64,000 nucleotides of DNA from Platanthera guangdongensis. Lineage: Eukaryota > Streptophyta > Magnoliopsida > Asparagales > Orchidaceae. Below are positions 15,108-63,135 of the stretch, piece by piece. Each line of letters begins with the position of its first letter. Position 1 is the first letter of the stretch. The notes beneath the pieces are model-generated. The model was not told the DNA's origin, searched no databases, and was given only the letters and a program-made list of their open reading frames with translations. Both the position numbers and the translations under genes were made by a program. The DNA is taken from assembly GCA_039583875.1 (NCBI GenBank), contig CM077162.1, forward strand, positions 56,881,675-56,945,674, given 5' to 3'.

Positions 15108-15355
15108 TGTTGAGAACAAAGGTCCAGCGGGATTGGGTGTGTGTGGGACCGCATATTTGGGCTTCCCCATCGCGTTCCAGGTCTGGGTGTTGACCCCGGT
15201 GGGCCCCCCGTGTGGCGGAATATCCCCGCCATCCCGTGGATGGATTAGTCCCACATTGCCTGCAGCGGGTGGTCCTTGGTGTTTATGTACCCCCGTCCCC
15301 CCTTACCATTACCTCGGGGTTTTGGGAAGATGTGTGGTGACGGGTGGTTTCCACA
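15108..15355 (+). repeat. K LTR1 (248 bp)
   Basis: It runs from TGTTGAGAAC to GGTTTCCACA and is followed immediately by TGGTATCAGAGC (15356-15367), the tRNA-iMet primer site. It is unrelated by eye to the LTR of D although the sequence after it is D-like. Confidence 0.93.
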
Positions 15356-15367
15356 TGGTATCAGAGC

Positions 15368-16090
15368 ACACGGTCTTTTCCTCCTGATTCTGTGCGCTCT
15401 CTGCTTCTAGCGGCTTGTTTTCCTCTATCCGCGACCTCTTTCGCGACTTGCCTTCTCTTCTGTTCGCCGCCCTGTTCGAGCGGCTTGTTTCTGTCCGCTG
15501 CCCTGTTCGCGCGGCTTGCTTCTTGTTCTCTTCTCCTGGTGCCTTTTCGCAGCGACCTGTTTCCTTGTCGCCGCGTTCCTTGCTCTTTCTTGCCTCTCCG
15601 AGTCTTTGCGGCTTGTGTCTACCCGCTGCGGACTTCTTCTCCCTGTCCGCTTCTGCTTTCCCCATATCCGCTTGCCCCTATACTCGCGGTTTGCTGCTGT
15701 GATCTGCCTGACCGTGCGGGTTGTTCCTTTCTCACCCGCATCTTGGTCGCGGTCACCTGCCCTTCTCCTCTCTTCTGTTCGCTCGGCCTTTTCAGTCCGC
15801 GCGACCTCTTCCCCGCTGTGCCTTTGACCTCTTGCTAGACGCTGCTGTTCGCGCTACTTGATTATTCCCCTCTACCCGTTCCTGCTTGCTAGTCGCGCCG
15901 GCCTCATCTTTTGCCGTGCGACCTGTTCTCCTCTGTTCGCCCGACTTTTTCAAGCCGTGCGACTTCTTTCTCTCTGCTTCTTGGTAGCGGCCTTCCTAGC
16001 CGCCCGACCTGTTGCTGTTCGCCCGGCTTGGTGCTCTTTTCTCTTCTTGCGGCTTGTTCTTATCGTCGCGGCCTGCTCCTCTCTTGCCTC
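15368..16090 (+). repeat. GC-rich leader with CGCGGCTTGTTTCT-type repeats (K)
   Basis: The stretch is built of degenerate units of GCGGCTTGTTTC alternating with CGCGACCTGTTC. The leader of D (minus strand, about 39030-38600) has the same composition and the same first bases after the primer site (CCTCCTGATT). Long open frames here are low-complexity artefacts. A full gag, present in D, is missing. Confidence 0.75.
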
Positions 16091-17551: not shown

Positions 17552-17774
17552 CCATGTGGAAACCACCCGTCACCACACATCTTCCCAAAACCCCGAGGTA
17601 ATGGTAAGGGGGGACGGGGGTACATAAACACCAAGGACCACCCGCTGCAGGCAATGTGGGACTAATCCATCCACGGGATGGCGGGGATATTCCGCCACAC
17701 GGGGGGCCCACCGGGGTCAACACCCAGACCTGGAACGCGATGGGGAAGCCCAAATATGCGGTCCCACACACACC
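17546..17774 (-). repeat. K LTR2, inverted, with inward-facing primer site
   Basis: CTAATACCA (17546-17554) is the minus-strand form of a primer site TGGTATTAG. The LTR follows in reverse from 17555 and lacks its first bases, running straight into LTR3 at 17775. LTR2 and LTR3 therefore form an inverted repeat with arms of about 220 bp and a loop of about 30 bp. Confidence 0.92.
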
Positions 17775-18022
17775 TGTTGAGAACAAAGGTCCAGCGGGAT
17801 TGGGTGTGTGTGGGACCGCATATTTGGGCTTCCCCATCGCGTTCCAGGTCTGGGTGTTGACCCCGGTGGGCCCCCCGTGTGGCGGAATATCCCCGCCATC
17901 CCGTGGATGGATTAGTCCCACATTGCCTGCAGTGGGTGGTCCTTGGTGTTTATGTACCCCCGTCCCCCCTTACCATTACCTCGGGGTTTTGGGAAGATGT
18001 GTGGTGACGGGTGGTTTCCACA
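17775..18022 (+). repeat. K LTR3 (248 bp)
   Basis: A full forward copy, nearly identical to LTR1. Confidence 0.93.
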
Positions 18023-18052
18023 TGGTATCAGAGCCAGCCCGCTGCGGGGGTG
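18023..18052 (+). other. 30-bp minimal internal region (primer site plus G-run)
   Basis: The whole sequence between LTR3 and the next LTR start is TGGTATCAGAGC, a short linker CAGCCCGC, then TGCGGGGGTG. This provides a tRNA-iMet primer site and a short purine run but nothing else. The identical 30 bp recurs at 18334-18363. Confidence 0.9.
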
Positions 18053-18085
18053 TGTTGAGAACAAAGGTCCAGCGGGATTGGGTGT
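18053..18085 (+). repeat. Partial LTR start (33 bp) in K
   Basis: This is the first 33 bases of the K LTR, directly followed by a full LTR starting again at 18086. It looks like a slippage or template-jump product. Confidence 0.9.
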
Positions 18086-18333
18086 TGTTGAGAACAAAGG
18101 TCCAGCGGGATTGGGTGTGTGTGGGACCGCATATTTGGGCTTCCCCATCGCGTTCCAGGTCTGGGTGTTGACCCCGGTGGGCCCCCCGTGTGGCGGAATA
18201 TCCCCGCCATCCCGTGGATGGATTAGTCCCACATTGCCTGCAGCGGGTGGTCCTTGGTGTTTATGTACCCCCGTCCCCCCTTACCATTACCTCGGGGTTT
18301 TGGGAAGATGTGTGGTGACGGGTGGTTTCCACA
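18086..18333 (+). repeat. K LTR4 (248 bp)
   Basis: A full forward copy, followed by the second 30-bp primer-site/G-run spacer (18334-18363). Confidence 0.93.
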
Positions 18334-18363
18334 TGGTATCAGAGCCAGCCCGCTGCGGGGGTG

Positions 18364-18611
18364 TGTTGAGAACAAAGATCCAGCGGGATTGGGTGTGTGT
18401 GGGACCGCATATTTGGGCTTCCCCATCGCGTTCCAGGTCTGGGTGTTGACCCCGGTCGGCCCCCCGTGTGGCGGAATATCCCCGCCATCCCGTGGATGGA
18501 TTAGTCCCACATTGCCTGCAGCGGGTGGTCCTTGGTGTTTATGTACCCCCGTCCCCCCTTACCATTACCTCGGGGTTTTGGGAAGATGTGTGGTGACGGG
18601 TGGTTTCCACA
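18364..18611 (+). repeat. K LTR5 (248 bp)
   Basis: The last full forward copy, ending TTTCCACA next to the AGTTG duplication. F gag resumes after it. Confidence 0.93.
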
Positions 18612-31387: not shown

Positions 31388-31714
31388 TGTTGGGTATTGA
31401 ATCCACAATAACCCAGATTGTGTGAAGTAGCCCTTGAACTAATTTGAATTATGTTTGTATTTGATGCTCTTTTTAATTGAGTGTTTGCAGGATAAAATTG
31501 CCAAGTGTAGAACAATGTTAGTCTACAATGAGTCACCAAACACAAGACCATATAATGTAATCTCTCAATGTGTGATCCATGATGTTGACTCATGCGTAGC
31601 CTCTCTATTGGGTCACACTTCGTTTTCAAGCACTAAAGACATGGGAGAAGAGTTGGCAACTGTATTTCTTGAAGAAATTAAGTTTACAGATTTTCAGAAA
31701 AATTCTAAGTCTTT

Positions 31715-32420
31715 TTCTCGAGTAGAAACGTTTATACTCAAGAAGAACTTTTGTTTATTCTCGAGTGAGACTTGTCATGAACTCGAGTTGCAGAAGTAGT
31801 TCTCGAGAAAGCTTAGTGATGTTCTCGAGAAAGACATGTGTTCTCGAGTACTCCATGACTTTCTTTCTCGAGTTACTTCTTTTCCAGACAGAATATTTTT
31901 CTAAGTCTTTTTCTCAAGAAGCTACATGTTATTTCTCGAGAAGGTCAGTATTACTTCTCGAGAACCAGAAGACATTTCTCGAGTAACAGATTCTCTTCTC
32001 GATTAACAGAATAATTTTCTCAAGAACAGAAGTTCATTTTTATTGAGTACTTATTTTCTTTCTCGAGATGCCTAAATTCCACCTTTATATTTTTCTAAGT
32101 CTTTTTCTCTAGAAGCAAAATATTTTTCTCGAGAAGGCCATGTTTAGTTCTCGTGAAACAGAAAACTTTTCTCGAGAACAAGAATATTTTTCTCGAGAGC
32201 CGGACATCTTTTCTCGAGATACTTCTTTGTTCTCGAGTACCAGAGTACTTCTTCTCAAGAACAAAACTAATTCTTCTCGAGTACTTTCCTTCATTCTTGA
32301 GATTGCTGATTTCCACCTCCACATTTTTTTCTAAGTGTTTTTCTCGAGATCCTCATCATTCTTCTCGAAAATCAGAAAATCTTTTCTCGAGTACTATTAT
32401 TCTTCTCGAGAAATGCTATA
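31715..32420. repeat. TTCTCGAGAA / TTCTCGAGTA palindrome array in LTR of B
   Basis: About 20 CTCGAG cores, mostly as TTTCTCGAGAA or TTCTCGAGTAC, lie in about 700 bp at irregular spacing. The same array is at about 61225-61890 in the other LTR. It replaces the GTGTCGACAC array of A and C. Confidence 0.92.
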
Positions 32421-32529
32421 CTATTTTCTGATTTTTTTAAGTTTCGACAGACGTGATTTCAAATGTGATTAGCGCTTGATTAGTCCACGTGTCAAGCATT
32501 TATTTTGATTATGACTGTTAGGCTAGTCC

Positions 32530-32537
32530 TATAAAAG
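32530..32537 (+). promoter_or_regulatory. TATA box of the B LTR promoter
   Basis: TATAAAAG lies about 110 bases after the palindrome array. The same octamer is at 62002-62009 in the 3' LTR. Confidence 0.75.
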
Positions 32538-33235
32538 GTCTTATCATAATCGACCAACCCAAAGAAGAAAACCTAAGCATTTTGAATCAAAAATTCTCTT
32601 TCTAAAATCAGAAGCCGCCGCTATTCATCATCTTCATCGCCGATCTGCTTTCAATCTAGAGATTCAGAGCAAGTGATTCAACATATCAAGATCTTCTACA
32701 TCGACAGATTCTTTTCTTGATCGTGTTGAGTCCAGAATTTTCAGATCGAGAGATTTAGCCGTGTCTTCTTCAATCTATTTCTGAAAAAGCTTCAAAGTTC
32801 AAGGAAGAAGAAGGGCTGAAGTTTTTAGATTTGAGATCAATACTGTTTGTATTTCTTTGTATTCATTTTACTCTTATAGGAGATTATTCTCCGAGTATAG
32901 GAGCTTTGTTCTCCGAGTTATTTATAGGAAGTTTCTCTTCCTAGTGTAGATCCTATTTTGAGGGATCGAGTTGCAGGAACTTTGTTCCAAGTGGTAGGAT
33001 TGTTTTCAATCCGAGAATAGTGGAGTAGCCAAGTCTAGTGAGTTGCTAGGTTGATGAGGTGGAAATTGGATGTACCCAAGGTTTGGGAACCACTATAATT
33101 CTTGGTGTCATCTGTTAATGCTTGCTTATTTTTTCTGTGCATTGCTCGTTCAATTTTTATTCCGCAAAAAGATGCAGAACTCACCTATTCACCCCCTCTA
33201 GGTGATTTAGGCAGACAACTTAAATATTTTTCAAT

Positions 33236-44549: not shown

Positions 44550-44975
44550 ATGGATTTCATTTCTCGAGTACATCACTTGTACTCGAGAATGGCGGAATTA
44601 TTTCTCGAGAACAAAAGCTCTACTCGAGAATGACAAAATTAGTTCTCGAGAACAAAAGCTCTACTTGAGAACGAGGATTGCTCAAATCAAGAACTTGGAC
44701 ATTTCTACTCGAGAACAAGAAGAATTCTACTCGAGTGCTAACTATCCTCTTCTCGAGAACAGTAATCCACTCGAGAAATCTGATTGGAAATTTTTTCTTC
44801 AAGTTCAAATTTTTCATACTGGCACCCAGGCACTTCACCGCCATATTTTAGGTATTTTTAACGTTATTTATATCATTTATCATCAAAATTAAAGGAAAAT
44901 ATAAATAGACTTAGGTCTAAGAAATTTTATTCCCGATTTCAAAACCCTTTCTCTCGAGAAAAGACTCTTCACCTT
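44550..44975. repeat. CTCGAG palindromes in the pol-env spacer of B
   Basis: Nine CTCGAG cores, as TTTCTCGAGAAC, TACTCGAGAAT and similar, lie at 44562-44790 and one more at about 44954, between RNase H and the env-like start at 45052. These match the palindromes in B's LTR. Confidence 0.9.
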
Positions 44976-45051: not shown

Positions 45052-45308
45052 ATGGCGTCGTCTTCCAAGCTCGAAATCGGCAGCAAACTGGTTTCAACAG
45101 GGATTGGCGAAATTTCAGATGATTTCAGGAATCTTATAATCTTACTCGATACTGCCAGCTTATCCTTTATTCTGGAACACCCATGCTGTATTTTAATTTC
45201 TGATGTCGAAGAATTCTTTCAACATGCCAAAGTCAAGCGTAATGGCAAGGTGCTCAAATCAAGGGTTCGAGATGTCAAGGTAAAGATGACCTCTCTCTCT
45301 CTATTTTC
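45052..45308 (+). pseudogene. B env-like gene, first part
   Basis: It starts MASSSKLEIGSKLVSTGIGE and aligns with the env-like ORF of C: LIILLDTASLSFILEHPCC, DVEEFFQHAKV and KVLKSRVRDVKVKMTSLSL parallel C's VITLVTDSGLEYLVSEP, EVLEFLAGASV and YNIKSRVHGTKVKVSPKSL. A frame change occurs in a CT-rich run (about 45288-45300). C inserted after 45313. The ancestor resumes at 58508. Confidence 0.8.
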
Positions 45309-45457
45309 AAATGTGTTGGGTACATTGGTCAAATGTACCTGATTTGAAGAAGCCTCACCTAACTCAATGATATACATCATAATGTATTTGATGTTTGTTT
45401 GAGTTACTTATGCAGGTTAGGTACTCACTGGACTGAAGCTAAAAGTTTCTAAGTCCA

Positions 45458-46395
45458 TGTGTCGACACCCAGAGGGAAAGTGTCGACACTTGAGAAAGCT
45501 TGTGTCGACACCCAGACAAGCAGTGTCGACACTTGGAGTCATTGTGTCGACACCTGGGATGAAGAGTCGACACCAGACAGAAAGTGTCGACACTTGGAGC
45601 TGTGTCGACACTCAGTGAAGAAGAATGCAGAAAAGCTGTGTCGACACTTAGCAGAAGTGTCGACACCTAGAAGAGCTGAGTCTACATCAGAAAGTGTCGA
45701 CACTTGGAGTTGTGTCGACACTCAGCAAAATTCTGCAGAGACTAAGGACAAGTGTCGACACTCAACATAATGTGTCGACACTCAATCAGCAGAGTCAACA
45801 TATGAAGAATGTGTCGACACTCAGCACAATGTGTCGACACACAAACAGAAGAATCAGTAATTGAAGTAAGTGTCGACACTCAACACAATGTGTCGACACT
45901 ATGCAGAAGAGTCAACACTTGAAGAAAGTGTCGACACCCAGCACAATGTGTCGACACTTAGTTGAAGAGTCTACACTTGAAGAAAGTGTCGACACAAGGA
46001 GCTGTGTCGACACTTAGCAAAGAACAGAAAAGTTTACAAAATATTCTAAGTACAAGTGTCGACACTAAGGGAATGTGTCGACACTCAGCTGAAGAAATAA
46101 AATTGAAGACTGGTGTCGACACCAAGAAGCAGTGTCGACACTTGACAGTTTCAACACATGAAGATGTGTCGACACAAAGAAGATGTGTCGACACTTAGAA
46201 GAATACAGTTAAAGAATGAAGAACAAGTACTTGTGTCGACACTCAATTTCAGTGTCGACACATGCAGAAGAATCTGGGTCGAGACATACAAGGAATTGTG
46301 TCGACATCTTGTAGACTTGAGTCGACACTTACACAACATGTGTCGACACTTGGTCTATAAGTGTCGACACTTAAGAACAGAAAGTCTCGACACTA
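45458..46395. repeat. GTGTCGACAC palindrome array in 5' LTR of C
   Basis: I count about 31 perfect copies of the self-complementary decamer in about 940 bp, plus variants such as GAGTCGACAC. Spacing is irregular, mostly 15-45 bp, with differing flanks. The 3' LTR has the same array at about 56547-57484. Every core contains an intact CG, although methylated CG tends to be lost in plant transposons. Confidence 0.95.
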
Positions 46396-46526
46396 TCTGA
46401 CAGTTAGAGAATTTCAAGAAGTGACTGGTTGACATGACAGCTGCCGATCCAGCCGGTCTACAACAACTGTCAGAGAAATCAGAAGTCTGTTATGAACCGG
46501 ACCAGCCGGTTACCATGAAGGAAGCC

Positions 46527-46534
46527 TATAAATA
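46527..46534 (+). promoter_or_regulatory. TATA box of the C LTR promoter
   Basis: TATAAATA stands about 130 bases after the last palindrome, in CCGGTTACCATG...GAAGCC context shared with A. The copy in the 3' LTR is at 57616-57623. Confidence 0.78.
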
Positions 46535-47414
46535 GGCACCCATAGTTTACAGAAACAGATTGATTATTGTTATTACAAGTAGTGAGAATAATTGAAGTGT
46601 TTGATCAGATTAAATCAGAAAAGTGATACACAGAGGATCAACACAAGAAGATCTGGCAGTCCAACTGCAAATCTAAGAAGTTGGAGAGAGAGAGCTCCAA
46701 TCAAGAATTCAGTCTTTGGAACTAAGGCTGAGAAGAAGGATTCAGAATCATCTGGATCTCAAGAAGCAGAGGTCAAGGATTAACTGCAGAGGATTCAGAC
46801 TAATTCAGTTCTACTCAAGAAGCTTTGAAGGAAGCTAAGTCAGTTTGGATCTAGCTGAGTTCTTCCAAGAACTCTTCAAGAAACTCTCAACTCCTCTCTT
46901 ATTTTCTGAGTTGTAGAGTTAATTATTGTATTTCAATTTTAACTTGTAGGATCCATTGGATCTGAGAGAATTGTAAGCCTATATTATAAAGGCTGAGGGT
47001 AGGGCTTGGTTGCCTGAGTGTAGGAGTTGAAGAACTCTGAGTGTAGGCCTTGATTGGCTGAGTGTAGGCCTGGGTGGCTGAGTGTAGGCCTTGGTGGCTG
47101 AGTGTAAGGCTTTGGGCCTGAGGTGTAGGAACCTTGTTGGGTTCTGAGATAGTGGAGAAGTTTGGCCGAATCTAGTACACTGCTAGATAGGCGAAGGGGG
47201 AAAGTGGATGTACCCAAAGATTGGGGAACCACTATAAATTTGTGTGTCTGCTGTGCTGTGATGTGCTGTGCATTAACTGTTTATATTCTGTTATTGCTGT
47301 TAGCTGTAGAAATCTGTGAGATAACTGTTTTGCTGCCAACAAAGTTTTAATAAGGTTTAGGTCACCTATTCACCCCCCCCCCCCTCTAGGTGTTTAGGTA
47401 CCATATCTTTCAAG

Positions 47415-47528: not shown

Positions 47529-49568
47529 ATGGGTTCTTATGAGAATCACAAAGAGTTGGGTTCCATGAAGTTACCCATATGCAGGAAGGAGATTTTTGGA
47601 ATCTAGAAAGAAAGGGTTAGGCTATTTATGGAGGCCTCTGACCCTAGAATCTACATCACAGTCAAAGAGGGGCCATATGTGCCCATGAAGATCTCAGTAT
47701 TGGATGCAAATCAGAGGACTCCAAAGGATTTCTCTGAGATGACCAAGGATGAAATTGTCCTAGCCACTATGGACAAAAGGGCACAAAACATAATAGTAAG
47801 TGCCATTGATGATGCAACTTTTCAGAACCTAATTCACTGTAAAACAGCAAAAGAAATGTGAGATACCCTCATTGTCTATATGGAAGGTTCTGAAGAAGTT
47901 AGGCAAGATAGGAAGTCCTTACTTAATCAAGAGTATGAGAGCTTTAGGCAAGGAAGAGGAGATAGCATCACTGAATGCTACAAAAAGTTCTATAGAATTG
48001 TTAATGAACTCATGTCCTATGGAAGAGAGTTCACTAACTATGAATTGAATGATAAGTTCTTAAGGTCCCTAACCAAAGATTGGGACACCAAGATCTATGC
48101 CATCAGAGAAATGGCAAAGTTGGGAGAAATTCCTCCTTCCACACTGTTTGGCAAGTTGCTGTCTTATGAGATGCAGCTGTCTGTGAGAAAAGAGGAGGAA
48201 AAATCAACAAGGACTGAGCACAGGGAAAGGACTGTTGCCTTCAAGTCAGAAGTACCTAGAAAGGGCAGGACTAAGTCATCAACTCCTCCTTCAGAGGTAG
48301 TTGAATCAGAATCTGATGAATCTGTTAGCACAAAGTCTACAAGCAGTGAAAGTGATGAAGACTTTGCTGCATTCACCAGACATTTTCAGAAATTTCTGAA
48401 GAAGAAATAGTGGAGGTCCAGACCTTCATTTTCCAAAGGGAAAGAAGTCCAGTATCAGGAGAAGAAGCCTTCAAAGAAGGACAAGAAAAAGACAAAGACT
48501 AGCAAGGCAACTGGGTCTAAGATAGTGTGTTACTGCTGCAATAGACAGGGTCATGTTATTGCGGATTGTCCTGAGAGAAGAAAAGAATCCAGTGACAAAA
48601 AGAAGACTCACTTCAAAGGAAAGAAGGAGAAGTCCTTTGTTGCAAAGAATGAGAAGACTCTTTCAGACATTTCTTCTTCAGACACTGAGACAGATGCTGA
48701 AGCCTATATAGGGCTATTTGCTGAAGAAGAAGAGGAGTTTATGCAGATCATGGAATCAATCTATGAACAAGAAGAGTGTCAGTGCCAAGGACTGATGACA
48801 TTGACTGAAAGTACCAAAATCCTGGAGCAGCCAGGACCTAGTCAGGTACAAAGTCCAACTCAAAGTTCAGATTTCAGTTCTAGTTCAGAGTCAGATTCAT
48901 CTTCATCAAGTGATGGAAGTGTTTCTGAATCTGAGGGAGATATTCATCAGCTCTTAGATGAATATAAAGTACTGTTGCAAGCCTATAAGAAAAGCAAGTC
49001 CCTTGCCAAAAGTCAGGCAAAGGAAATTGCTGATCTAAAGGCAGCTGCAACAGACTTTGAGAAGGAAGTTGATCAAAAGCTCAATGAGGTAGCCAGGCTG
49101 AAACACATTACTGTGATTCAGATGGGAACTATCACTTATAAAAATGATCAAATTAAGTTACTGGAGATCAATCTCCAGAAGGAAAGAGAGCTAGTTGCTA
49201 GGTTTTCAAAACCTAAATCAGTGCTACCCTTGATTGATGAATTTGTTCATCATAAAGGAAAGGCTGGATTGGGTTTTATTAAACCAGCTAGGACTGTTAA
49301 GGATCAGTCCAAGTCCAAGGGCAAAGCCCCAACATTCAACAAGCCTGCTGTAGTCAAGACAGCAAAGGTTGTACCTAAGCAAAGGTACAACAAGTTTGAA
49401 TGCTGGTGTTGTGGCAAGGTTGGCCACTTTGCCTTGGATTGTTGGCACAATGCCAGTGCCAAGTTGAGTAGCAAGTTACCTGGTGGAAAGCCAGCAGGTA
49501 GCTATGTCAAGTTGCAAACTAACAATCACCAAGGACCCAAGTTTACTTTGGGTTCTAAGGTTCATTAA
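47529..49568 (+). pseudogene. C gag with three internal stops and a terminal TAA
   Basis: Gag forms the virus-like particle. The frame starts MGSYENHKELGSMKLP. Core motifs are FMEASDPRIYITVKEGPYVPM, NIIVSAIDDATFQNLIHCKTAKEM, KSLLNQEYESFRQGRGDSI and ELNDKFLRSLTKDWDTKIYAI. An acidic stretch is followed by two CCHC knuckles, CYCCNRQGHVIADC (about 48531) and CWCCGKVGHFALDC (about 49402), with a coiled coil between. Stops are TAG 47604, TGA 47859 and TAG 48408, each consistent with a former Trp codon, and TAA 49566 just before protease. No frame change is present. Confidence 0.92.
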
Positions 49569-52500
49569 TTTGTTTTGCAGGTGAATCCAAGTGGCCATAC
49601 CCCAACATGGTACTTGGATAGTGGATGTTCCAGACATATGACTGGAACAAGGGGACTACTGAAGGACTACATTCCAATCAAAAATGGTCCTAAAGTGACC
49701 TTTGGTGGTTCTGAAAAAGGAATCATCAAAGGGTTTGGTAACATCTCTTCAAACCTTGTTACCATTACTCAAGTGGCTTATGTTAAAGGGTTGAAACACA
49801 ACCTTATAAGCATAAGTCAGTTAAGTGATGTAGAGTATGACATCTCATTTGTTAAAAATGGTTGTCATATCAAGAGGTCAAGTGATCAAGAGATCATTTT
49901 GACAGGATATAGAAAGAGGAATGTCTACTGTCTAGACATCATGATTGAGAACAATGGTTCTCCTGTTTATCTTGTAGCTGATGAGACAGTCTCTCATTGT
50001 GTCAAGTGGCACAAGAGGCTAGCTCATCTTAACTACAAGACTATTAGCAAACTCTTTAGCAAAGAGTTAGTGAGGAATGGTCCTCAAGTTAAGTGTGTCA
50101 AAGATGGCATTTGCTCAGCTTGTCAAAAGGGCAAGCATACTAAATCCACCTTTAGAAGCTTAGACAACAAAGATGCTGTGAGGTGTTTATACCTCTTGCA
50201 TATGGATCTCTTTGGTCCAATGCCAGTTCACAGCTTAGGTAGGAAAGTCTATACCTTTGTAGTTGTTGATGACTACTCAAGGTTTTCCTGGGTGTTCTTC
50301 TTAAGGCAGAAATCTGAAACACCTAGTGTCTTCTACAGCTTTGTTAAGCAAATTCAGAATGAATTGAACTGTACAGTGGTCAAAATTAGAAGTGACCATG
50401 GTACTGAGTTTCAGTCTGAAAGCATGACAAAACTGTGTGAAGACTTTGGGATATTTCAAGAATTCTCTTCACCTAGAACACCTCAGCAAAATGGCATTGC
50501 TGAGAGGAAGAATAGAACCTTGATAGAGGCTGGTAGAACCCTACTTAGTGATACATCACTGCCTGAGTATTTCTGGGCTGAAGCAGTTAACACTGCATGC
50601 CATGTGATAAATAGGGCTACCATCACTAAAAGGTTAAACAAGACCCCCTATGAAGTTGTGAAAGGCAGGAAACCAAATCTATCCTATTTCAGGATTTTTG
50701 GTTGCAAATGCTTCATACTTAACAATGGAAAGTCTTACCTAACTAAGTTTGCTGCCAAGTCCCAAGAGGGAGTGTTTGTTGGGTACAGCAATAATAGTAA
50801 GGCTTATAGAGTCTACAACTTGACTACACAAGTTGTAGAGGAGTCTGTGCATGTAGTTTTTGATGAGACACAACTAATTAACAATGAGTTGTCTAGCAAT
50901 GTATGCAGCCCCACAGGTCTTACTAAGAAGATGGACAAGCTAACCATAGAAGATGTACCTGCTGCAAGACAGCAAGTAGAAGAAGATGGCTTATGTCCAG
51001 GGGGAGAACTACATGTACCAGGAACTGAAGAAGTACAAGGAACTCAGCTTGATGAAGATGCTGAAGAAGTTCAACCAGGAGTAAGGATGCCTCCAGCCAA
51101 CAGGCATCTAAGAGATCATCCAGTAGAGCTGATTATTGGAGATCCAAGACAAGGTGTTCAAACAAGGAGCAGAAATCAGAATGCTGTAGTATATTCAAGT
51201 TTTCTGTCTCAAATAGAACCAAAGAAATTTGAAGAAGCTATACAAGATCCACAGTGGACTGAAGCAATGCAGGAAGAACTTAATCAGTTCAAAAGGTGCA
51301 AGGTTTGGGACTTGGTTCCTAAACCTAAAGATCACAATGTGATAGGAACAAAGTGGATCTATAGGAATAAGTTAGATGAACAAGGAGTCATCATTAAGAA
51401 TAAAGCAAGATTGGTTGCAAAAGGATATAGGCAAGAAGAAGGTATTGATTTTGATCAAACCTTTGCCCCAGTAGCCAGACTGGAGGCCATAAGGATGTTC
51501 TTGGCCTATGCAACCTATCAAGGATTCAAGGTATACCAAATGGATGTCAAGTCAGCATTCCTAAATGGTAATCTAAAGGAAGAAGTATATGTGGAGCAGC
51601 CTTCAGGTTTTGTTGATCCTACTCTTCCACATTATGTCTATAGACTTAGGAAAGCATTGTATGGGTTAAAGCAAGCTCCTAGAGCTTGGTATGAAACCCT
51701 ATCTAGTTTCCTCATTGAGAACAAGTTCACAAGGGGGAAAATAGATAAGACTCTATTCCTTAGGGAATCTAGAGGCAAAGTCATACTTGTCCAAATATAT
51801 GTAGATGACATTATATTTGGGTCTACTGAAAGTAGCCTTTGCAAAAAGTTTGCAAAGCTTATGCAAAGTCAATTTGAGATGAGTAGTATGGGAGAGCTAA
51901 AGTTTTTCTTGGGTCTCCAAGTCAAACAGACTGAAAGTGGCTTGTCCATATGTCAGTCCAAGTTCACCCTAGAACTCATAAGGAAATATGGTATGGATTC
52001 ATCCAGTACCATGAAGACTCCTATGGGGTCAAGTATGTCTCTTAGCAAGGATGATGCAGGGAAACCTGTAGATGAAACCTTGTATAGAGGGATAGTTGGC
52101 TCCCTACTATACTTGACTGCTAGTAGGCCTGACATTATGTATGCTACATGTGTTTGTGCCAGGTATCAAGCCTGCCCTAAAGAGTCTCACTTGACTGCAG
52201 TCAAGAGAATTTTGAGATATCTAAAGGGCACTCCCTATCTAGGCCTCTAGTACCCTAGGAATGGAGATTTTGATCTAACAGGCTATTCAGATGCAGACTT
52301 TGCAGGATGCAAAGAAGATAGAAAGAGCACTACTGGATCCTGTCAATTCCTAGGTGGAAGAATAATTTCATGGAGCAGCAAAAAGCAGACTAGTGTGGCT
52401 ATCTCCACAGCTGAGTCAGAATATGTAGCTGCAGGAAGTTGCTGTGCTCAACTTCTATGGATTCAACATCAGCTAGAAGACTATGGATTTCAGGTAAGTA

Positions 52501-52772: not shown

Positions 52773-53222
52773 AAGGTGTCGACACATAGACAAGTCTATG
52801 TCGACACAGAATAGTAAGTGTCGACACTTCAGAAAAATGGTGTCGACACATCTAGGATGTTGGTGTCGACACTTCAGATTGTTAGTGTCGACACATGTCG
52901 AGTAGGTGTCGACACATCCAATGTGGTGTCGACACTTAAGTTTTACTCAGAATTTTCTAAGTAAAGTCTCGACGATTAGTCGAGTAGAGTGGTGTCGACA
53001 CATAAACATGTGTCGACACATAAAATCTGTTGACTAAACCTGTGTCGACACATGAGTGTCGAGACATTATAAGTCAGTGTCGACACTTATTGCCAGTGTC
53101 GACACATCTTTAGTAATCCATCCCGCCTGTTCGTCTTCAAACCAGAAAGGTATAAATAGGATTCTGTCTTTGTTTGTCGACACACTTTCAGAGTTTCGAG
53201 ACCAAAACTGCTGTGTCGACAT
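52773..53222. repeat. GTGTCGACAC palindromes in the pol-env spacer of C
   Basis: About 12 perfect copies of the LTR palindrome plus variants fill the 514-bp gap between pol and the env-like ATG. The spacing and flanks differ from the LTR array, so this is not a simple copy of LTR sequence. A TATAAATAGG box at 53151-53160 lies about 100 bases before the env-like ATG. Confidence 0.93.
53151..53160 (+). promoter_or_regulatory. Possible internal promoter (TATA box) for the env-like ORF
   Basis: TATAAATAGG, nearly the same as the LTR TATA box (TATAAATAGGC), follows the spacer palindromes and precedes the ATG at 53257 by about 100 bases. This arrangement repeats that of the LTR: array, TATA box, transcript. 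Function is inferred. Confidence 0.55.
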
Positions 53223-53256: not shown

Positions 53257-56100
53257 ATGGCTCCCAAGCTCGAGGAGAATGTTAACGAAGGCTATGAGCT
53301 GGTTCGTGGCGCATTCGACGATGGCGATCAAGAAATCAAATCGGTGATAACCCTAGTCACCGATTCTGGATTGGAGTATCTGGTTTCAGAACCAACTAAA
53401 ATATGGAAGAAGGAAGTACTCGAATTCCTTGCTGGAGCTTCTGTAGATGACTCAGGTTACAACATCAAATCAAGAGTGCATGGAACCAAGGTCAAGGTAT
53501 CACCCAAAAGTCTGAGAAAGGTACTTCAACTACCTAAGACTCAAGAAGAAGAAGAAGTTTCTACATCCAAGACCAGGGAAGCTTTGGTCTGGTGTGGTCT
53601 TGACTCTAAGATGAAGATAGGTTCTGTCTTTAACAGAAAAGGCATGAACAGTCAAGGTAAATTTCTGTCAGAAATAGTGGGAAAAGTCATTCTCAGAAAA
53701 CCTGGAGGGCATGACAGGGTGTCAGCCTCCATGTTCAGTATTATGACCAGAATTATCTTCAACCTAAAAACAGACTGGTCATTGGTTGTCTATGAGAAAG
53801 TTAAGGAGAGTCTGAAGAAGCCCAATCTGGGCAGAATACTAAGTCTCTACCTGGCTGGTATAATACCAGAGGTAATGAGCAATGCTGCTGGTACTAAAAT
53901 CAATCACATGAGAAGGATGCATATGAGGATATTTTCAAGATGGGAAAGAGTGCTGTCTAAGGAAGTTCCTACCCCAGAAAATCAAGTTTCTAAGAAAGAT
54001 TCACCTCCAAAGAAGAAGAGGAAGATAGCTCCTGTGACACAGGAGTCCTCCAGCAGTTCAGGTAGTGAAGAACAGGTTGTTTTCACTCCTGATAGTCAAA
54101 TAGAAGTGGCTGCAGAGAAGTCTACTGCTCCTCAAGAGCCAGCTGAAATCCAGGGGGAGCTGTCTACAGCTAGCCCCATGCAAAAGGATCCAAGCCAGGG
54201 GGAGCCTCCAGCTGTAGAACAACCCTCTACACTGGAGAGTGAGCAAGCTACACTTATTATCCAAGAGGTACTTTCTGACCTCAATACTTTAGATTTTTCT
54301 ATAATAGATTCTGATTTGTCTGATGTCCATCAGCAAACTCAGCAAGCAAATCAAGTACCAGATGTTGTTCTCCAAGACACATCAGTAGTACATGAAGTTG
54401 TTCCTGATAAAGTAATTGATGAACCCAGTACTTCTCCTGCACAGTCTCCAGCTGAATACACAATGGAAGATCTATTTCTTAATTTAGATCAAGAGGATTT
54501 TGACATGGACAAGAATGCTGCTGAAGAGAAAGGTGCAGCTGTTGAGGGGGAGAACTTGGAAGTTCAGGATGAGCCTTTAAGGCTAGACACTGAGAAGGCA
54601 CTGGATGTGCAAGCTGAAAAACCATCAAGCCCTAAGGATAGGGTAAATATAGCCAGTACTTCAGAGTCTGAGGAAGATGAGACTGAACAAGCTAAAAAGA
54701 AGAAATTCTTTGTATTCAAAAGAAGGAGTCAGAGCTACAAGAAGGCTCTACAAACTGTTGCTCAACACTCTTTAGTCCAACAAGCTCCATCAACTGATTA
54801 CAGCGGCTTAATGGTAGCAATGCAAGTTAAGCTGGATGAGCACAGGAGGGCTATAGAGAAGTATATTGATGAAGGCCACAAGTCTTTACAATTTGATTTA
54901 GCTCAAGATATAAAATCAATCAGGTTTGAGATGAACCTGAACAAGAAAGAGATGAATGAATGCTTCCACAAGGGTGGAAATGCAGTGGTATTTCTGGCAA
55001 CTCATCAGGAAAAGATCAAAACTCAAGTAGATGATATAGCACTAAAGCAAGGCTATGTGCTGGAGAATCAATTAAGAATGAATGATAATTTAACTGCCTC
55101 CCACAATGCTATAGTCACAGAACTAAAGAATAAGACTGCTGAACCTTCAACATCATCTGCTGCTGCAAAGGCTGAATTTGATAAAGCTTTTCAAGATGAA
55201 ATTGCTGCTGTCAAGACTGCCATCAAGGATTCACAGAAGGTCATTTCTGAACAGCTTACAAAGCTTAGACCTTATTTTAAGGATGGAATCAGGTACTTGG
55301 ACAGCCAAATCAGGTTCCAAAAGGATGATGTAAGAGACCATGTAGCCCAAGAAGTCATAAAGGGGGAGAGAGTGTTAGTCAAGGCCAGTTCTGAGCATGC
55401 AAAATGGATTTCAAATTCAATCAGGGCTACACTTGGATATCCTCCCCTGTGTGATGACAATGAAGTTGCTGAATCTGGACTGAACCCTGCCTATTTTGGA
55501 GGTGAGCCACAAGAAGTAGCTCAAGTCATTTATCCACCTCCAGATTTTGAAATGATTCATGCAGAGGTGAGCACTATGTATAGCCCATCTGGGGGCAAGG
55601 ACAATGTCCATTTAGAAAAGGTTACTCAACCTATAACAACAGCTATGCAAGAGGCTATGGACAAAGAAGAAGAGACAAGGCTGTCAAAGAAGAAGTTCAG
55701 GGAACTAGCTGAGCAAAAACCTGATTTTGAACAGTGGAGCCCTACTTCTAGGAACATCATTCTCACAGCCTGGAAAGCAGCCAAGGACAATGCACATGAG
55801 AGGAACAAATGGTTCTCAGAAGCAGAATGGAGGAAGCATGAGATTAGGCAGGAAGCCATTGTCCAGTATAGAAGAAAGGCTAAGTTAGGAAAGCTACCTC
55901 CTACAGCTGTGGAGCCTAGCAAGTACTTTCCTAAGCCCTATCATTACTTTGAGAGACAGAAAATCAAGGCTGAAGAACTAAAGAAGAAGGACTCCAGAGG
56001 AAAGAAGATTGCTGATACTGAGCCTGCTGCTGCTGCTGCTGTAAAAGCCAAAGTGCAAGCTGGGAAAGGAATAGTCATAAAAGAACCTGATCAGAATTAG
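53257..56100 (+). CDS. C env-like ORF, 947 codons, intact; probable nuclear protein
   Basis: This is the third ORF typical of SIRE/Maximus elements, often called env-like; its function is not established. Residues 1-230 (including VLEFLAGASVDDSGYNIKSRVHG and VSPKSLRKVLQLPK) resemble a domain common in plant transposon proteins. Residues 235-480 are acidic and Ser/Pro/Gln-rich. PPKKKRK at 250-256 is a classical nuclear localisation signal, and KKKK/KRR at 480-490 is a second basic cluster. Residues about 500-720 are probably coiled coil. The basic C-terminus holds KYFPKPYHYFERQ, conserved in B. I see no signal peptide and no clear membrane segment, which argues against a true envelope protein. 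The ATG is the first in the frame after the spacer. Confidence 0.87.
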   Translation: MAPKLEENVNEGYELVRGAFDDGDQEIKSVITLVTDSGLEYLVSEPTKIWKKEVLEFLAGASVDDSGYNIKSRVHGTKVKVSPKSLRKVLQLPKTQEEEEVSTSKTREALVWCGLDSKMKIGSVFNRKGMNSQGKFLSEIVGKVILRKPGGHDRVSASMFSIMTRIIFNLKTDWSLVVYEKVKESLKKPNLGRILSLYLAGIIPEVMSNAAGTKINHMRRMHMRIFSRWERVLSKEVPTPENQVSKKDSPPKKKRKIAPVTQESSSSSGSEEQVVFTPDSQIEVAAEKSTAPQEPAEIQGELSTASPMQKDPSQGEPPAVEQPSTLESEQATLIIQEVLSDLNTLDFSIIDSDLSDVHQQTQQANQVPDVVLQDTSVVHEVVPDKVIDEPSTSPAQSPAEYTMEDLFLNLDQEDFDMDKNAAEEKGAAVEGENLEVQDEPLRLDTEKALDVQAEKPSSPKDRVNIASTSESEEDETEQAKKKKFFVFKRRSQSYKKALQTVAQHSLVQQAPSTDYSGLMVAMQVKLDEHRRAIEKYIDEGHKSLQFDLAQDIKSIRFEMNLNKKEMNECFHKGGNAVVFLATHQEKIKTQVDDIALKQGYVLENQLRMNDNLTASHNAIVTELKNKTAEPSTSSAAAKAEFDKAFQDEIAAVKTAIKDSQKVISEQLTKLRPYFKDGIRYLDSQIRFQKDDVRDHVAQEVIKGERVLVKASSEHAKWISNSIRATLGYPPLCDDNEVAESGLNPAYFGGEPQEVAQVIYPPPDFEMIHAEVSTMYSPSGGKDNVHLEKVTQPITTAMQEAMDKEEETRLSKKKFRELAEQKPDFEQWSPTSRNIILTAWKAAKDNAHERNKWFSEAEWRKHEIRQEAIVQYRRKAKLGKLPPTAVEPSKYFPKPYHYFERQKIKAEELKKKDSRGKKIADTEPAAAAAVKAKVQAGKGIVIKEPDQN

Positions 56101-56388
56101 ACTAAGATTAGACTAAGACACATTGTTGTAATCTTTTACATATGCAATATTTTTGTAAAACAATGGAAATGTATTAAAACAATGTAAGAACAATTTTTGA
56201 TAAATATATTTCATGATTGTTCAGTAGAATGTGTCTAATTCTTGTTTGTTATGTAATGCTGAATGAGTATACATGTGTGCTTTATTACATGTTTAAGTTT
56301 ACCCTGTTGATATATACCTGCTTTACATCATTCTCTAATTTTTAATTATGAGTGGTGTATATCATTGACTAAGGGTTATGACTTCTCC
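56101..56388 (+). other. Untranslated tail of C internal region
   Basis: A/T-rich sequence between the env-like stop and the polypurine tract. It parallels the tail of A at 1-155. No gene or motif is seen. Confidence 0.7.
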
Positions 56389-56402
56389 AAATAGGGGGAG
56401 AT
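56389..56402 (+). promoter_or_regulatory. Polypurine tract of C
   Basis: AAATAGGGGGAGAT directly precedes the 3' LTR. Confidence 0.92.
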
Positions 56403-58502
56403 TGTTGGGTACATTGGTCAAATGTACCTGATTTGAAGAAGCCTCACCTAACTCAATGATATACATCATAATGTATTTGATGTTTATTTGAGTTACTTAT
56501 GCAGGTTAGGTACTCACTGGACTGAAGCTAAAGGTTTCTAAGTCCATGTGTCGACACCCAGAGGGAAAGTGTCGACACTTGAGAAAGCTTGTGTCGACAC
56601 CCAGACAAGCAGTGTCGACACTTGGAGTCATTGTGTCGACACCTCGGATGAAAAGTCGACACCAGACAAAAAGTGTCGACACTTGGAGCTGTGTCGACAC
56701 TCAGTGAAGAAGAATGCAGAAAAGCTGTGTCGACACTTAGCAGAAGTGTCGACACCTAGAAGAGCTGAGTCTACATCAGAAAGTGTCGACACTTGGAGTT
56801 GTGTCGACACTCAGTAAAATTCTGCAGAGACTAAGGACAAGTGTCGACACTCAACACAATGTGTCGACACTCAATCAGCAGAGTCAACATATGAAGAATG
56901 TGTCGACACTCAGCACAATGTGTCGACACACAAACAGAAGAATCAGTAATTGAAGTAAGTGTCGACACTCAACACAATGTGTCGACACTATGTAGAAGAG
57001 TCAACACTTGAAGAAAGTGTCGACACCCAGCACAATGTGTCGACACTTAGTTGAAGAGTCTACACTTGAAGAAAGTGTCGACACAAGGAGTTGTGTCGAC
57101 ACTTAGCAAAGAACAGAAAAGTTTACAAAATATTCTAAGTACAAGTGTCGACACTAAGGGAATGTGTCGACACTCAGCTGAAGAAATAAAATTGAAGACT
57201 TGTGTCGACACCAAGAAGCAGTGTCGACACTTGACAGTTTCAACACATGAAGATGTGTCGACACAAAGAAGATGTGTCGACACTTAGAAGAATACAGTTA
57301 AAGAATGAAGAACAAGTACTTGTGTCGACACTCAATTTCAGTGTCGACACATGCAGAAGAATCTGGGTCGAGACATACAAGGAATTGTGTCGACATCTTG
57401 TAGACTTGAGTCGACACTTACACAACATGTGTCGACACTTGGTCTATAAGTGTCGACACTTAAGAACAGAAAGTCTCGACACTATCTGACAGTTAGAGAA
57501 TTTCAAGAAGTGACTGGTTGACATGACAGCTGCCGATCCAGCCGGTCTACAGCAACTGTCAGAGAAATCAGAAGTCTGTTATGAACCGGACCAGCCGGTT
57601 ACCATGAAGGAAGCCTATAAATAGGCACCCATAGTTTACAGAAATAGATTGATTGTTGTTATTACAAGTAGTGAGAATAATTGAAGTGTTTGATCAGATT
57701 AAATCAGAAAAGTGATACACAGAGGATCAACACAAGAAGATCTGGCAGTCCAACTGCAGATCTAAGAAGTTGGAGAGAGAGAGAGCTCCAATCAAGAATT
57801 CAGTCTTTGGAACTAAGGCTGAGAAGAAGGATTCAGAATCATCTGGATCTCAAGAAGCAGAGGTCAAGGATTAACTGCAGAGGATTCAGACTAATTCAGT
57901 TCTACTCAAGAAGCTTTGAAGGAAGCTAAGTCAGTTTGGATCTAGCTGAGTTCTTCCAAGAACTCTTCAAGAAACTCTCAACTCCTCTCTTATTTTCTGA
58001 GTTGTAGAGTTAATTATTGTATTTCAATTTTAACTTGTAGGATCCATTGGATCTGAGAGAATTGTAAGCCTATATTATAAAGGCTGAGGGTAGGGCTTGG
58101 TTGCCTGAGTGTAGGAGTTGAAGAACTCTGAGTGTAGGCCTTGATTGGCTGAGTGTAGGCCTGGGTGGCTGAGTGTAGGCCTTGGTGGCTGAGTGTAAGG
58201 CTTTGGGCCTGAGGTGTAGGAACCTTGTTGGGTTCTGAGATAGTGGAGAAGTTTGGCCGAATCTAGTACACTGCTAGATAGGCGAAGGGGGAAAGTGGAT
58301 GTACCCAAAGATTGGGGAACCACTATAAATTTGTGTGTCTGCTGTGTTGTGCTGTGCTGTGCATTAACTGTTTATATTCTGTTATTGTTGTTAGCTGTAG
58401 AAATCTGTGAGATAACTGTTTTGCTGCCAACAAAGTTTTAATAGGGTTTAGGTCACCTATTCACCCCCCCCCCCTCTAGGTGTTTAGGTACCATATCTTT
58501 CA
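56403..58502 (+). repeat. 3' LTR of element C (2100 bp)
   Basis: Nearly identical to 45314-47412, with mostly transition differences, one extra GA in a GA run near 57781 and a shorter C-run near 58470. Confidence 0.95.
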
Positions 58503-58507
58503 AAATG

Positions 58508-60681
58508 TTTGCAGCTACCTGAGATAGATGAAGAAGAGGACCTAGTAGTGACAGATTATGAAAGGGCCTTCAGTTTCTGTGCCCTTCCCCAATCTACGCA
58601 CACTGTTCGCCGACAGTTCATGAATGCTGAAAGTAAGTTGCTGGCAGATATTCTCGGAAATGTCCTCGTCTACAGGACAAGCTCTATAAGTTATATCACA
58701 CCAGAATTCTTTGATATGATGACTGCAGTTATTTGTAGAAAGAAATATCAGTGGGGTATAATGCTCTTTGAAAAAATTAAGGCATGTATTAAGAGCCCTA
58801 GTTATGGTAGGATCATTTCTTTGTACCTGAACCAGATGGACCCAGAAATATTTTCCATAAAAAAGGGAAGGACACTCCACCATATGAAGAAATTTTCCAT
58901 CATATCCATCCAGAGATGGGAAGTCAAAGTTCAGAAGTCTGACAAAGCTACAAAGGAAATTGAAGATGTGGTAGGGACTTCATCTCCACTTCTCATCAGA
59001 TAATTGATCCAGTTATTGAGGGGGAGCCTGGCCCATCTGATCAAGCTCAGCCCTCTCCAACTCTAGCCCCTTTTGCTGCCAATATTGTTACAGAAGAAAA
59101 TTCAACTTCTTCTGTTGCTGCCACTTCCACCTTGTTTCATACAGAACATATAGATCTTACTACTGTAGATATACCAAATACAGAAAACCTGATTGATGCC
59201 CAGGTTCAAGAACAGATTTTTTTCTACTAATGAAGATATCAACAGGATGATAGAGGATCTCTCCTCTAAAGAGCCTCTTTTCACTGTTCCTGAAGAACAT
59301 TCTTCTACTCTAGCCAAGTCACTAGAACAACAACCAACACAGTTCGCAGAACCTGGAAAGTCTCCTTTACCAGATCCAGCAAATTCTCCATTTGAAGATG
59401 AACATAATGAAGAGGTTGTTTATATTCATGGCTCAGAATATGATTTATCTGTTGAAGATGCTGATCCACCTCTCCACAGTCTCCATTTTAAGATTCCCTT
59501 CATACTTCCCATAGATGCAAAAGATGAACAAAGTACAATCAACAGAAAGCAAACCTCTACGTCCACTATCATCATTGAAGAGATTGCTCCATGGACATCC
59601 CCAGTTCTTCATCCTGAAGGTAATATCTTAAGCAAGATTGAAGCAATGCTAGCTGAGCAGAGAAATTATTTTGATACTTCTCGTAAAATTGTAACAGATA
59701 AAGTCACTGCCTTGGAAAAGGAATTGAGCCGTGAATTTGCTGAAATCCAGAATAACACTGATGAATTTAAAAGGCTGTTACAAATTGGAGGAAAAGCAAT
59801 TGATCATACCATTACCAGCATTGGTGAGGTAATGGAACAATCAGTTACTCTTGCAAACAATCAGATTCAACTTGAAAAGAAAGCCCAAGAACGCAACTTC
59901 AAAACTTGTGAAGAAGTTGGGCAGTTCAAAGAAGAAGTAATTAGCACTCTCTCTAGAAGTCAGAAAGGGGAGGATAAAGTGCAAGAACAACTTGAAAAAC
60001 AAGTTCAAACAATGAAAAATCAGTGGGATGACCAACTGAAAGAGATCCAGACATCGGTTCTGAAAGAAGTCAAAAGTACAAAGTTATACACTTATGATAC
60101 TACCATTTGAATGCATAATCAACTTTTCCCTGATCTGGCAATGGATCCTTCTGCACCCCTCCTGCACACTTGGATGTGAACAGGCCAACATTCTCTCCAC
60201 ATCCTAAATACTTTGAAGGACCATCTCCTGAATATTTTGAAGGACCATCTCCTGAAATTTATGAGGAAGTTTGAGAATCAGAACAAGCAAATGTTCCTCC
60301 TCAAGCACCTCCAGAGATACAGAAAGCCAAAAGAAGGAAATAAGGTGATGGTTCCTCAGCCAGTAGATCAACTCCTCATCCTGAAGCTGAAAGGAGAAGA
60401 CCTTAAGAATTCTCTGAAGTTTGGAGTCATACCTCCAAAGCTCTGATTCTAGATACTCTGAAACTTATGGTTGATTTAATGAAGACAGGAACATCCATTA
60501 CAGCTCCTATGAATGGGATTTATATGAAAAATATCTTACCAAAGGAAGTTTGTATGATAGAGAATATGGAAGGAATAATCCCAAGGCTCCACCCAGACCA
60601 CCAAAATATTTTCCAAAACCCTACAACTACCAGAAGAGACAACAAGAAAAGCAAGAAAGACAACAACAACAAAACCAGTAG
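58508..60681 (+). pseudogene. B env-like gene, second part (broken)
   Basis: It resumes with LQLPEIDEEEDL, aligned to C's LQLPKTQEEEEV. The N-terminal domain continues to RTLHHMKKFSIISIQRWE (parallel to C's INHMRRMHMRIFSRWE) and stops at 59001-59003. After frame changes an acidic linker and a long coiled coil follow (59193-60110). The C-terminal motif KYFPKPYNYQKRQ (about 60604) matches C. I see no PKKKRK signal in what remains. Stops and frame changes lie at 59003, 59230, 60110 and beyond. Confidence 0.82.
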
Positions 60682-60900: not shown

Positions 60901-62701
60901 TGTTGGGCATTGCATCCATAATAACTCAGATTTGTATGAAGTCACCCTTGAACTAAGTTGAATTAAATTTGTATTTGATGCTCTTTTTAGTTGAGTGTTT
61001 GCAGGATAAAATTGCCAAGTGTAGATCAATGTCAGTCTACAATGAGTCACCAAACACAGGATCATACAATGTAATCCCTCATTGTGTGATCTATGATGTT
61101 GACTCATGTGTAGCCTCTCTATTGGGACACACTTCTTTTTCAAACACTAAAGGCATGGGAGAAGAGTTGGCAGCTCTATTTCTTGAAGAAATTAAGTTTA
61201 CAGATTTTCAGAAAAATTCTAAGTCTTTTTCTCGAGTAGGAACTTTTATACTTGAGAAGAACTTTTGTTTATTCTCGAGTGAGACTTGTCATGAACTCGA
61301 GTTGCAAAAGCAGTTCTCAAGAAAGCTTAGTGTTATTCTCGAGAAAGCCATGTATTCTCGAGTACTCCATGACTTTCCTTCTCGAGTTACTTCTTTTCCA
61401 GATAGAATATTTTTCTAAGCCTTTTTCTCGAGAAGCCACATGTTATTTCTCGAGAAGGTCAGTATTAGTTCTCGAGAACCAAAAGTCATTTCTTGAGTAA
61501 TAGATTCTCTTCTCAAGTAACATAATAATTTTCTCGAGAATAGAAGTTCATTTTTCTCGAGTACTTCTTTTCTTTCTCGAGATGCCTAAATTCCACCTTT
61601 ATATTTTTCTATGTCTTTTTCTCGAGAAGCAAAATATTTTTCTCGAGAAGGCTAGGTTTAGTTCTCGAGAGCCAGACATCTTTTCTCGAGATACTTCTTT
61701 GTTTTCGAGTACCATAGTACTTCTTCTCGAGAATAAAAATAATTCTTCTCGAGTACTTTCCTTCATTCTCGAGATTGCTGATTTCCACCTCCACATTTTT
61801 TTCTAAATGTTTTTCTCGAGATTCTCATCATTCTTCTCGAAAATCAGAAAACTTTTCTCGAGTACTATTATTCTTCTCGAGAAATGTTGTACTGTTTTTT
61901 GAATTTTTCTAAGTTTCGATAGACGTGATTTCAAATGTGATTAGCGCTTGATTGATCCACATGTCAAGCATTTATTGTGATTATGACCACTAGGCTAGTC
62001 CTATAAAAGGTCTTATCATAATCGACCAACCCTAAGAAGAAAACCTAAGCATTCTGAATCAGAAATTCTCTTTCCAAAATCGGAAGCAGCCGCTATTCAT
62101 CGACTTCATTGCCGATCTGCTTTCGATCCAGAGATTCAGAGCAAGTGATTCAATAGATCAAGATCTTCTACATCGACAGATTCTTTTCTTGATCGTGCTG
62201 AGACAAAAATTTTCAGATCCAGAGATTTAGCTGTGTCTTCTTCAATCTATTTCTGACAGAGCTTCAAAGTTCAAGGAAGAAGAAGAGATAAAGTTTTAAG
62301 ATCTGAGATCAATACTGTTTGTATTTCTTTGTATTTCATTTTACTCTTGTAGGAGATTATTCTTCGAGTGTAGGAGCTTTGTTCTCCAAGTTATTTGTAG
62401 GAATTTTATCTTCTGAGTTAGATCCTATTTTGAGGGATCGAGTTATAGGAACTTTGTTCCGAGTGGTAGGATTGTTTTCAATCCGAGAACAGTGGAGTAG
62501 CTGAGTCTAGTGCGTTGCTAGATCGGTGAGGTGGAAAGTCGATATACCCAATGTTGGGAAACCACTATAATTCTTGGTATCGTCTGTGTATGCCTGATTA
62601 TTTTCTGTACATCGCTCATTCAAATTTTATTCCACAAAAAAATGCAGAACTCACATATTCACCCCTCTAAGTGATTTAGGCAGACAACTTAAACATTTTC
62701 A
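60901..62701 (+). repeat. 3' LTR of element B (1801 bp)
   Basis: It pairs with 31388-33233. It starts TGTTGGGCATTGCATCC and ends AACATTTTCA. The CTCGAG array runs about 61225-61890 and the TATA box is at 62002-62009. Confidence 0.92.
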
Positions 62702-63135
62702 ACTTCTTCCGACCACACACCCGTGAGACTCCATGCATCGGTCGTATCTTCAGAAACACCCGGTCTCCTACCTGAAACTCTACCTGACAATGCCGAGCAT
62801 CGTGATACTTGGCCTGTCTGCTCTGGGCTTCCAAAATCCTGTCTCAAATCAACCGCACCTAAGCATCCATATCCTCAACGAACTCTGAGGCAAGTGACTT
62901 CAGATCCTCAACTTAGATCCAAGTCAAAGGATTCATGCATCTCTGTCCGTATAAAGCCTAATATGGGGCCATGCCGATGCTGGACTGGTGGCTGTTGTTC
63001 TACGAGAACCCGATCAATGATAGTTGCCTCTCTCATGGATCTCCACAGTCCAATATGCAAAGACGCAATAAATCCTCCAGTGTCCGATAAATCCTATGGC
63101 AAATCCTGTAAGGCCCCATGTATCCGATAAATGAA
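62702..63135 (-). pseudogene. J2 gypsy pol fragment, right piece
   Basis: It continues the J2 integrase tail after element B. It matches J1 22355-22570 (blocks around CATCGGTCGTATCTT, AACACCCGG, CCTACCTGAAACTCTAC, GCCGATGCTGGACTG). A short block at 63107-63125 (CTGTAAGGCCCCATGTATC) repeats sequence found at the left piece near 31355, suggesting rearrangement. Confidence 0.7.

Follow-up and report, generated by a model that had tools for sequence, protein, structure and literature searches.

An orchid Sirevirus env-like gene probably encodes a nuclear VANC-fold protein that binds the palindromes of its own element

The 64,000-nucleotide window analyzed here (contig CM077162.1, forward-strand positions 56,881,675 to 56,945,674) lies in the 4.25-Gb genome of the orchid Platanthera guangdongensis and is made up of nested insertions, one of which, the retrotransposon E1, carries the env-like gene considered below. 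E1 is a Sirevirus (Ty1/copia), with a copia pol containing RVT_2, a polypurine tract (AGGGGGAG) followed by AT and then the TG of the 3' long terminal repeat (LTR), and palindromic repeated boxes both in the LTRs and 5' of env. Its LTRs are 99.0% identical by self-BLAST, so the insertion is young; it interrupts env of an older Sirevirus, designated E2, whose LTRs are 90 to 92% identical to each other. The env-like open reading frame (ORF) of E1 begins with ATG on the + strand and codes for a protein, P0001, of 947 residues, the length given in a preliminary description of this DNA (Table 1).

The palindromes that the same description placed around the ORF are indeed there, and they are organized in arrays. 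The 10-bp palindrome GTGTCGACAC occurs exactly 82 times in the window (none in 100 shuffles), with 31 copies in each E1 LTR, 12 just upstream of env at 52776-53105, 8 in an LTR fragment of another element at 310-755, and none within E1 gag, pol, or env. E2 has a similar layout with another 10-bp palindrome, TTCTCGAGAA, with 19 copies where 0.07 are expected, located in both LTRs and ahead of env; both palindromes have the core TCGA. Gaps of 18 to 24 bp make up 21/33, 9/14, 11/19, 7/9, and 13/21 of the gaps in five arrays (15 to 21% at random; P ≤ 0.0005 each), a spacing of about two helical turns whichever motif is used. The env-upstream stretch was fetched for 6 of 150 places with E2 relatives, and five of these have arrays of 5 to 11 CTCGAG cores, with most gaps 19 to 22 bp or about twice that, unlike the sixth (L052), an E2-type env copy with no palindrome array in its upstream 900 bp. 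The E1 5' LTR contains 42 CpGs, 34 of them inside palindromes, and elsewhere in it CpG is at 0.12 of expectation. The other-element copies of GTGTCGACAC belong to a Sirevirus fragment at 92-785 and 1521-1785 that carries the same array, and positions 92-281 of this fragment are 84.5% identical to E1 positions 56324-56512.

Copies of E1 (8 fetched of 48 scored) and of a sister family (12 fetched of 37 scored) all have GTGTCGACAC on both sides of env, at env identities of 54 to 60% between the families and 68 to 72% in the N-terminal domain. When palindrome, flank, and spacer bases are scored separately, with shuffled sister spacers as a control, the pre-env arrays of E1 and the 12 sister copies are 89% identical in palindromes, 77% in flanks, and 56% in spacers, and 39% in shuffled spacers; the corresponding values for the 3' LTR array, where register is lost, are 66, 62, 48, and 45%. 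Spacers among E1-family copies are 92 to 94% identical. Palindromes are therefore kept better than spacers between families, most clearly 5' of env.

The env-like protein itself is maintained by selection, as indicated by low ratios of nonsynonymous to synonymous divergence among seven copies (0.13 overall, 0.11 in the N-terminal domain, 0.07 in residues 517-760, and 0.29 in the linker). No internal stop is present in 32 of 48 genome copies, although these are the best-scoring of 137,286 candidates and the sample is thus biased to intact copies. The predicted structure of the N-terminal domain has as its top match, among 350,542 chains, VANC21 bound to its target DNA, and the same chain ranks first for an Athila-type relative (P0016) modelled from other sequences; these comparisons were run without the VANC hypothesis as input. 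The domain thus very probably has the VANC fold, as far as a modelled structure can tell, and specifically that of the DNA-bound fragment of VANC21. Residues 39-169 of P0001 also match Transposase_32 (PF20167) below the curated cut-off of 45 bits, as do its relatives P0002 and P0003, with HMMER scores of 21.9 (P0001), 25.9 (P0002), and 31.4 (P0003) bits and E values from 1.8e-4 (P0001) to 2.1e-7. HHalign against Transposase_32 proteins of the Athila type gives an E value of 1.3e-4 and a probability of 54 over 149 columns, compared with probabilities of 0.3, 0.6, and 2.3 for three column shuffles, supporting kinship with these proteins. Matches in the Protein Data Bank (PDB) to Spt5 and others, from a search with alignment A3, were discarded, as they came through P0011, a gene model fused to host SPT5; no relevant match came from the remaining PDB sequence searches.

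Several features suggest a nuclear location. The SV40-type, nuclear localization signal (NLS)-like motif PPKKKRK lies at residues 250-256, as first described, and is exact in six of seven close copies (PPKKKRT in the seventh), with basic runs at the same position in relatives P0005 and P0011; since 4.4% of shuffled versions of the K-rich P0001 contain a run of five basic residues, this motif is weak by itself. A second basic cluster, AKKKKFFVFKRRS, previously placed at 480-490, spans residues 479-491 or thereabouts and is kept in P0002, P0003, and P0004, and residues 474-500 have zero nonsynonymous changes among the seven copies. A hydropathy scan agrees with the earlier view that there is no evident signal peptide or membrane helix of the kind expected of a retroviral envelope: the N terminus is not hydrophobic, the protein is hydrophilic, and its best 19-residue Kyte-Doolittle mean is 1.27, where 1.6 is the usual membrane-helix threshold. 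A short acidic-hydrophobic island, EYTxxxLF, is conserved better than the variable linker around it and has the look of an activation motif. The Platanthera gene models P0003, P0005, and P0011 fuse env-like pieces with host genes (named polyamine oxidase, protein kinase domain, and SPT5-like), and public annotations thus carry the env-like domain under other names.

Palindromes also differ from the rest of the LTR in CpG decay, which was compared in four aged LTR pairs, one from E2 and three from sister-family copies, both LTRs of each being presumed identical at insertion. Of nine sister-family copies tried, three were usable; L010, L011, L013, and L016 have a 5' stretch without palindrome, the arrays of L018 gave no alignment, and L014 aligned over 449 bp, below the 600-bp cut. 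CpG has changed to TG or CA at 12/80 sites in palindromes and 28/57 elsewhere (Cochran-Mantel-Haenszel P = 1e-4, odds ratio 5.5), but TCGA sites outside palindromes have decayed at 7/21, so the TCGA context may explain part of the difference and the result is not decisive. The E1 pair has zero CpG decay, and a looser motif definition gives 8/26 and 15/26 in the E2 pair. Copy-against-copy counts (3/388 versus 18/195 and 37/320 versus 54/251) are confounded by selection in the source copies. The lower decay hints at, and does not prove, a bound factor that keeps methylation off.

Env-like ORFs with Transposase_32, many of about 400 residues, are present at 30 further loci (L021 to L050, e.g., L021:1333-2544). 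These are designated Athila type because PF20167 has been linked with an Athila ORF (PMC11728184) and because the ORF neighboring that of L046 resembles, by eye, a Ty3/gypsy integrase tail. The sunflower Athila ORF in that report has Transposase_32 together with a predicted nuclear signal (PMC11728184). HMMER and HHalign identify the N-terminal domain of P0001 as a divergent relative of these, with a similar predicted topology and the same VANC21 match, although P0001 scores under the Pfam cut-off and has a long C-terminal half that is lacking from the Athila-type proteins found, which are mostly no longer than about 400 residues. L039 is the sole locus of the 30 with a repeated palindrome, TGAGCTCA, present six times.

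Table 1. Coordinates of E1, E2, and the env-like gene within the window
Feature	Position	Strand	Basis or remark
E2 5' LTR	31388..33234	+	with CTCGAG array 31717-32410
E2 palindrome array 5' of E2 env	44563..44775	.	9 CTCGAG cores; one further at 44953
E2 env-like gene start, left of E1 insertion	45079..45303	+	tblastn, 31% to E1 env residues 12-86
E1 target-site duplication AAATG	45309..45313 (left), 58503-58507 (right)	.	from sequence
E1 5' LTR (Sirevirus bearing env-like ORF)	45314..47412	+	self-BLAST; ends refined from sequence
31 exact GTGTCGACAC in E1 5' LTR	45459..46370	.	exact-motif count
E1 gag ORFs	47880..49568	+	Pfam: Retrotran_gag_2 at 47880-48410; weak zinc knuckle in 48525-49568
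E1 pol ORF	49575..52250	+	Pfam: gag_pre-integrs, rve, SH3, RVT_2
12 exact GTGTCGACAC immediately 5' of env	52776..53105	.	15 GTCGAC cores, reaching 53220
Env-like ORF (P0001)	53257..56100	+	ATG start, 947 aa
N-terminal domain, residues 1-240, divergent Transposase_32, predicted VANC21 fold	53257..53976	+	profile matches, predicted structure
PPKKKRK, SV40-type NLS-like motif, residues 250-256	54004..54024	+	lineage-limited
EYTxxxLF acidic-hydrophobic island, residues 399-412	54451..54492	+	possible activation motif (speculative)
Second basic cluster AKKKKFFVFKRRS, residues 479-491 (about)	54691..54729	+	conserved
E1 Sirevirus polypurine tract AGGGGGAG plus AT	56393..56402	+	adjoins 3' LTR; signature as described in PMC2829016
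E1 3' LTR	56403..58502	+	self-BLAST; ends refined from sequence
31 exact GTGTCGACAC in E1 3' LTR	56548..57459	.	exact-motif count
E2 env-like gene remainder, right of E1 insertion	58497..60675	+	tblastn pieces 32-33%; stops present
E2 3' LTR	60901..62702	+	with CTCGAG array 61231-61881

The window contains more LTR-like direct pairs at 89 to 90% identity (4449-6836/11744-14150, 20384-22358/29411-31388, and 2947-4257/19104-20383) and is thus a deep nest of insertions. Positions 15106-18611 hold several direct and inverted copies of 220 to 315 bp each, about 99% identical.

The arrays correspond closely to the RM boxes that Bousios et al. (2010) described in Sireviruses, where palindromes are found in the LTR and ahead of env and differ between elements, with repeated palindromic boxes in 13 of 21 elements (PMC2829016). 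Those of E1 and E2 are likewise palindromic and CpG rich, occupy the upper LTR and the region just 5' of env, vary between elements, and accompany the same AGGGGGAG/AT-TG junction, although their TCGA-cored palindromes do not have the CGG-CCG signature seen in 12 of the 13 published motifs. The sections of that report drawn on here name no binding factor, whereas an element-encoded candidate is proposed here. The other system of reference is VANC of the Arabidopsis VANDAL (Mutator-like) DNA transposons, in which VANC21 binds a short motif that is dense in its element's non-coding DNA, causing loss of methylation (PMC5735166, PMC10398659). Common to both are an element-encoded protein, known or predicted to have the VANC21 DNA-bound-fragment fold, and arrays of a short motif in the non-coding DNA of that element; the arrays turn over and the motif varies between families. 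However, the host of the env-like protein is a monocot LTR retrotransposon, not a VANDAL or other Mutator-like element; its motif is palindromic in E1 and that of VANC21 (YAGTATTAY) is not; binding and demethylation are known for VANC21 and only predicted here; and a Pfam hmmscan recovered neither DUF1985 nor DUF287 in P0001 (E ≤ 10) or in 16 Athila-type proteins, under filters that drop most matches above 0.1. Unpublished VANC structures are mentioned in two meeting reports (PMC8756742, PMC12859917). No literature joining VANC with LTR-retrotransposon env-like proteins was found in a search that left most subscription journals and preprints uncovered.

With the VANC21-like fold and the layout of the arrays, the env-like gene most likely codes for a sequence-specific DNA-binding protein of the nucleus, not an envelope, that acts like VANC21 on its own palindrome to keep the control regions open. 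Arrays beside the gene, palindromes kept over spacers, the different palindrome that accompanies the divergent env of E2, and purifying selection all fit this reading. The protein would enter the nucleus, where there is good reason to place it, and the N-terminal domain, which probably recognizes GTGTCGACAC, would bind the copies in the LTRs of its element and those that shortly precede the env-like gene. Binding would keep these regions open by anti-silencing, possibly with activation too, and so increase transcription of the element as a whole, env included; that anti-silencing rather than mere activation is involved is a tentative choice, with the chances not quite even.

Several observations weigh against this reading. 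A basic run at the PPKKKRK position is lacking in P0002, P0003, P0004, and P0006, and the coiled coils of the preliminary description were not recovered, a crude heptad test in which one window of 65 reached P < 0.02 being at chance level, a result that does not exclude coils; the VANC-like factor which that description proposed is partly supported. The pairing of the divergent E2 env with a different palindrome involves only two palindrome clades. The ratio of env distance to reverse transcriptase-RNase H (RT-RH) distance is about 3.5 between clades and 2.2 to 3.4 within them (four relatives, by hand with a standard protein-distance formula), so env shows no clear excess of evolution over pol across the palindrome switch. 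Env-less Sireviruses also have LTR palindromes (PMC2829016), and 29 of 30 Athila-type loci, despite the related domain, have no palindrome array within 1.5 kb.

These last two points would suit a stress-type host transcription factor that binds the palindromes, leaving the env-like protein a different role in the nucleus, for instance in assisting the pre-integration complex or in tethering integration, and making its VANC21 fold a coincidence. The binding-site search in PMC2829016 likewise turned up mainly stress-factor sites, and no common binding factor for the palindromes emerged from it. We regard this explanation as unlikely, in that the linker palindromes are described as restricted to env-bearing Sireviruses (PMC2829016) and the best structural match is a DNA-bound factor, itself encoded by a transposon, whose targets are arrays in the non-coding DNA of that transposon. 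A plain transactivator of the LTR and env promoters, binding the palindromes and recruiting the transcription machinery through an acidic motif, would explain why the arrays are positioned like promoter elements and would give a role to the EYTxxxLF island in the acidic linker. This is improbable, however, as the island is short and its activating role speculative, VANC21 works by removing silencing (PMC5735166), and the reduced CpG decay in palindromes gives a hint of lower methylation.

That decay bears also on the idea that the palindromes are hairpin or small-RNA templates and hot spots of RNA-directed DNA methylation, with an unrelated env-like protein. The LTR palindromes of maize Sireviruses are small-RNA hot spots (PMC5311732), but the palindrome CpGs here decay less, not more, than other CpGs of the same LTRs, and the palindromes are just 10 bp and kept better than their spacers, so we give this idea little credence. 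A true envelope or a cell-to-cell movement protein, in keeping with the historical name and the location between pol and the 3' LTR, is very improbable given the hydropathy profile, the basic clusters, and the lack of a convincing match for the N-terminal domain in a viral structure library (query template modeling score ≤ 0.19 among the 50 matches listed).

The role of plant retrotransposon env-like genes is called unproven or controversial (PMC2829016, PMC7264820), and whether Tork and Athila ORFs modulate their own epigenetic landscape is described as yet to be investigated (PMC12844716). If the env-like protein is a palindrome-binding VANC-fold factor, it would offer one testable answer both to the role of these genes and to what reads the Sirevirus palindromes, and would explain both the resistance of these highly abundant elements of plants to silencing and the joint occurrence of palindromes and env. 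It is conceivable, although we hold it with some doubt, that the env-like genes of Sireviruses (Ty1/copia) and Athila-type elements (Ty3/gypsy) are not envelope genes and instead form a retrotransposon branch of a VANC-fold, sequence-specific anti-silencing superfamily shared with Mutator-like DNA transposons, in which each Sirevirus family's protein and palindrome array co-evolve. A palindrome-binding VANC-fold factor would also mean that sequence-specific anti-silencing is not confined to a single group of DNA transposons but reaches two LTR-retrotransposon superfamilies, and it would make the motif bound by each env-like protein predictable.
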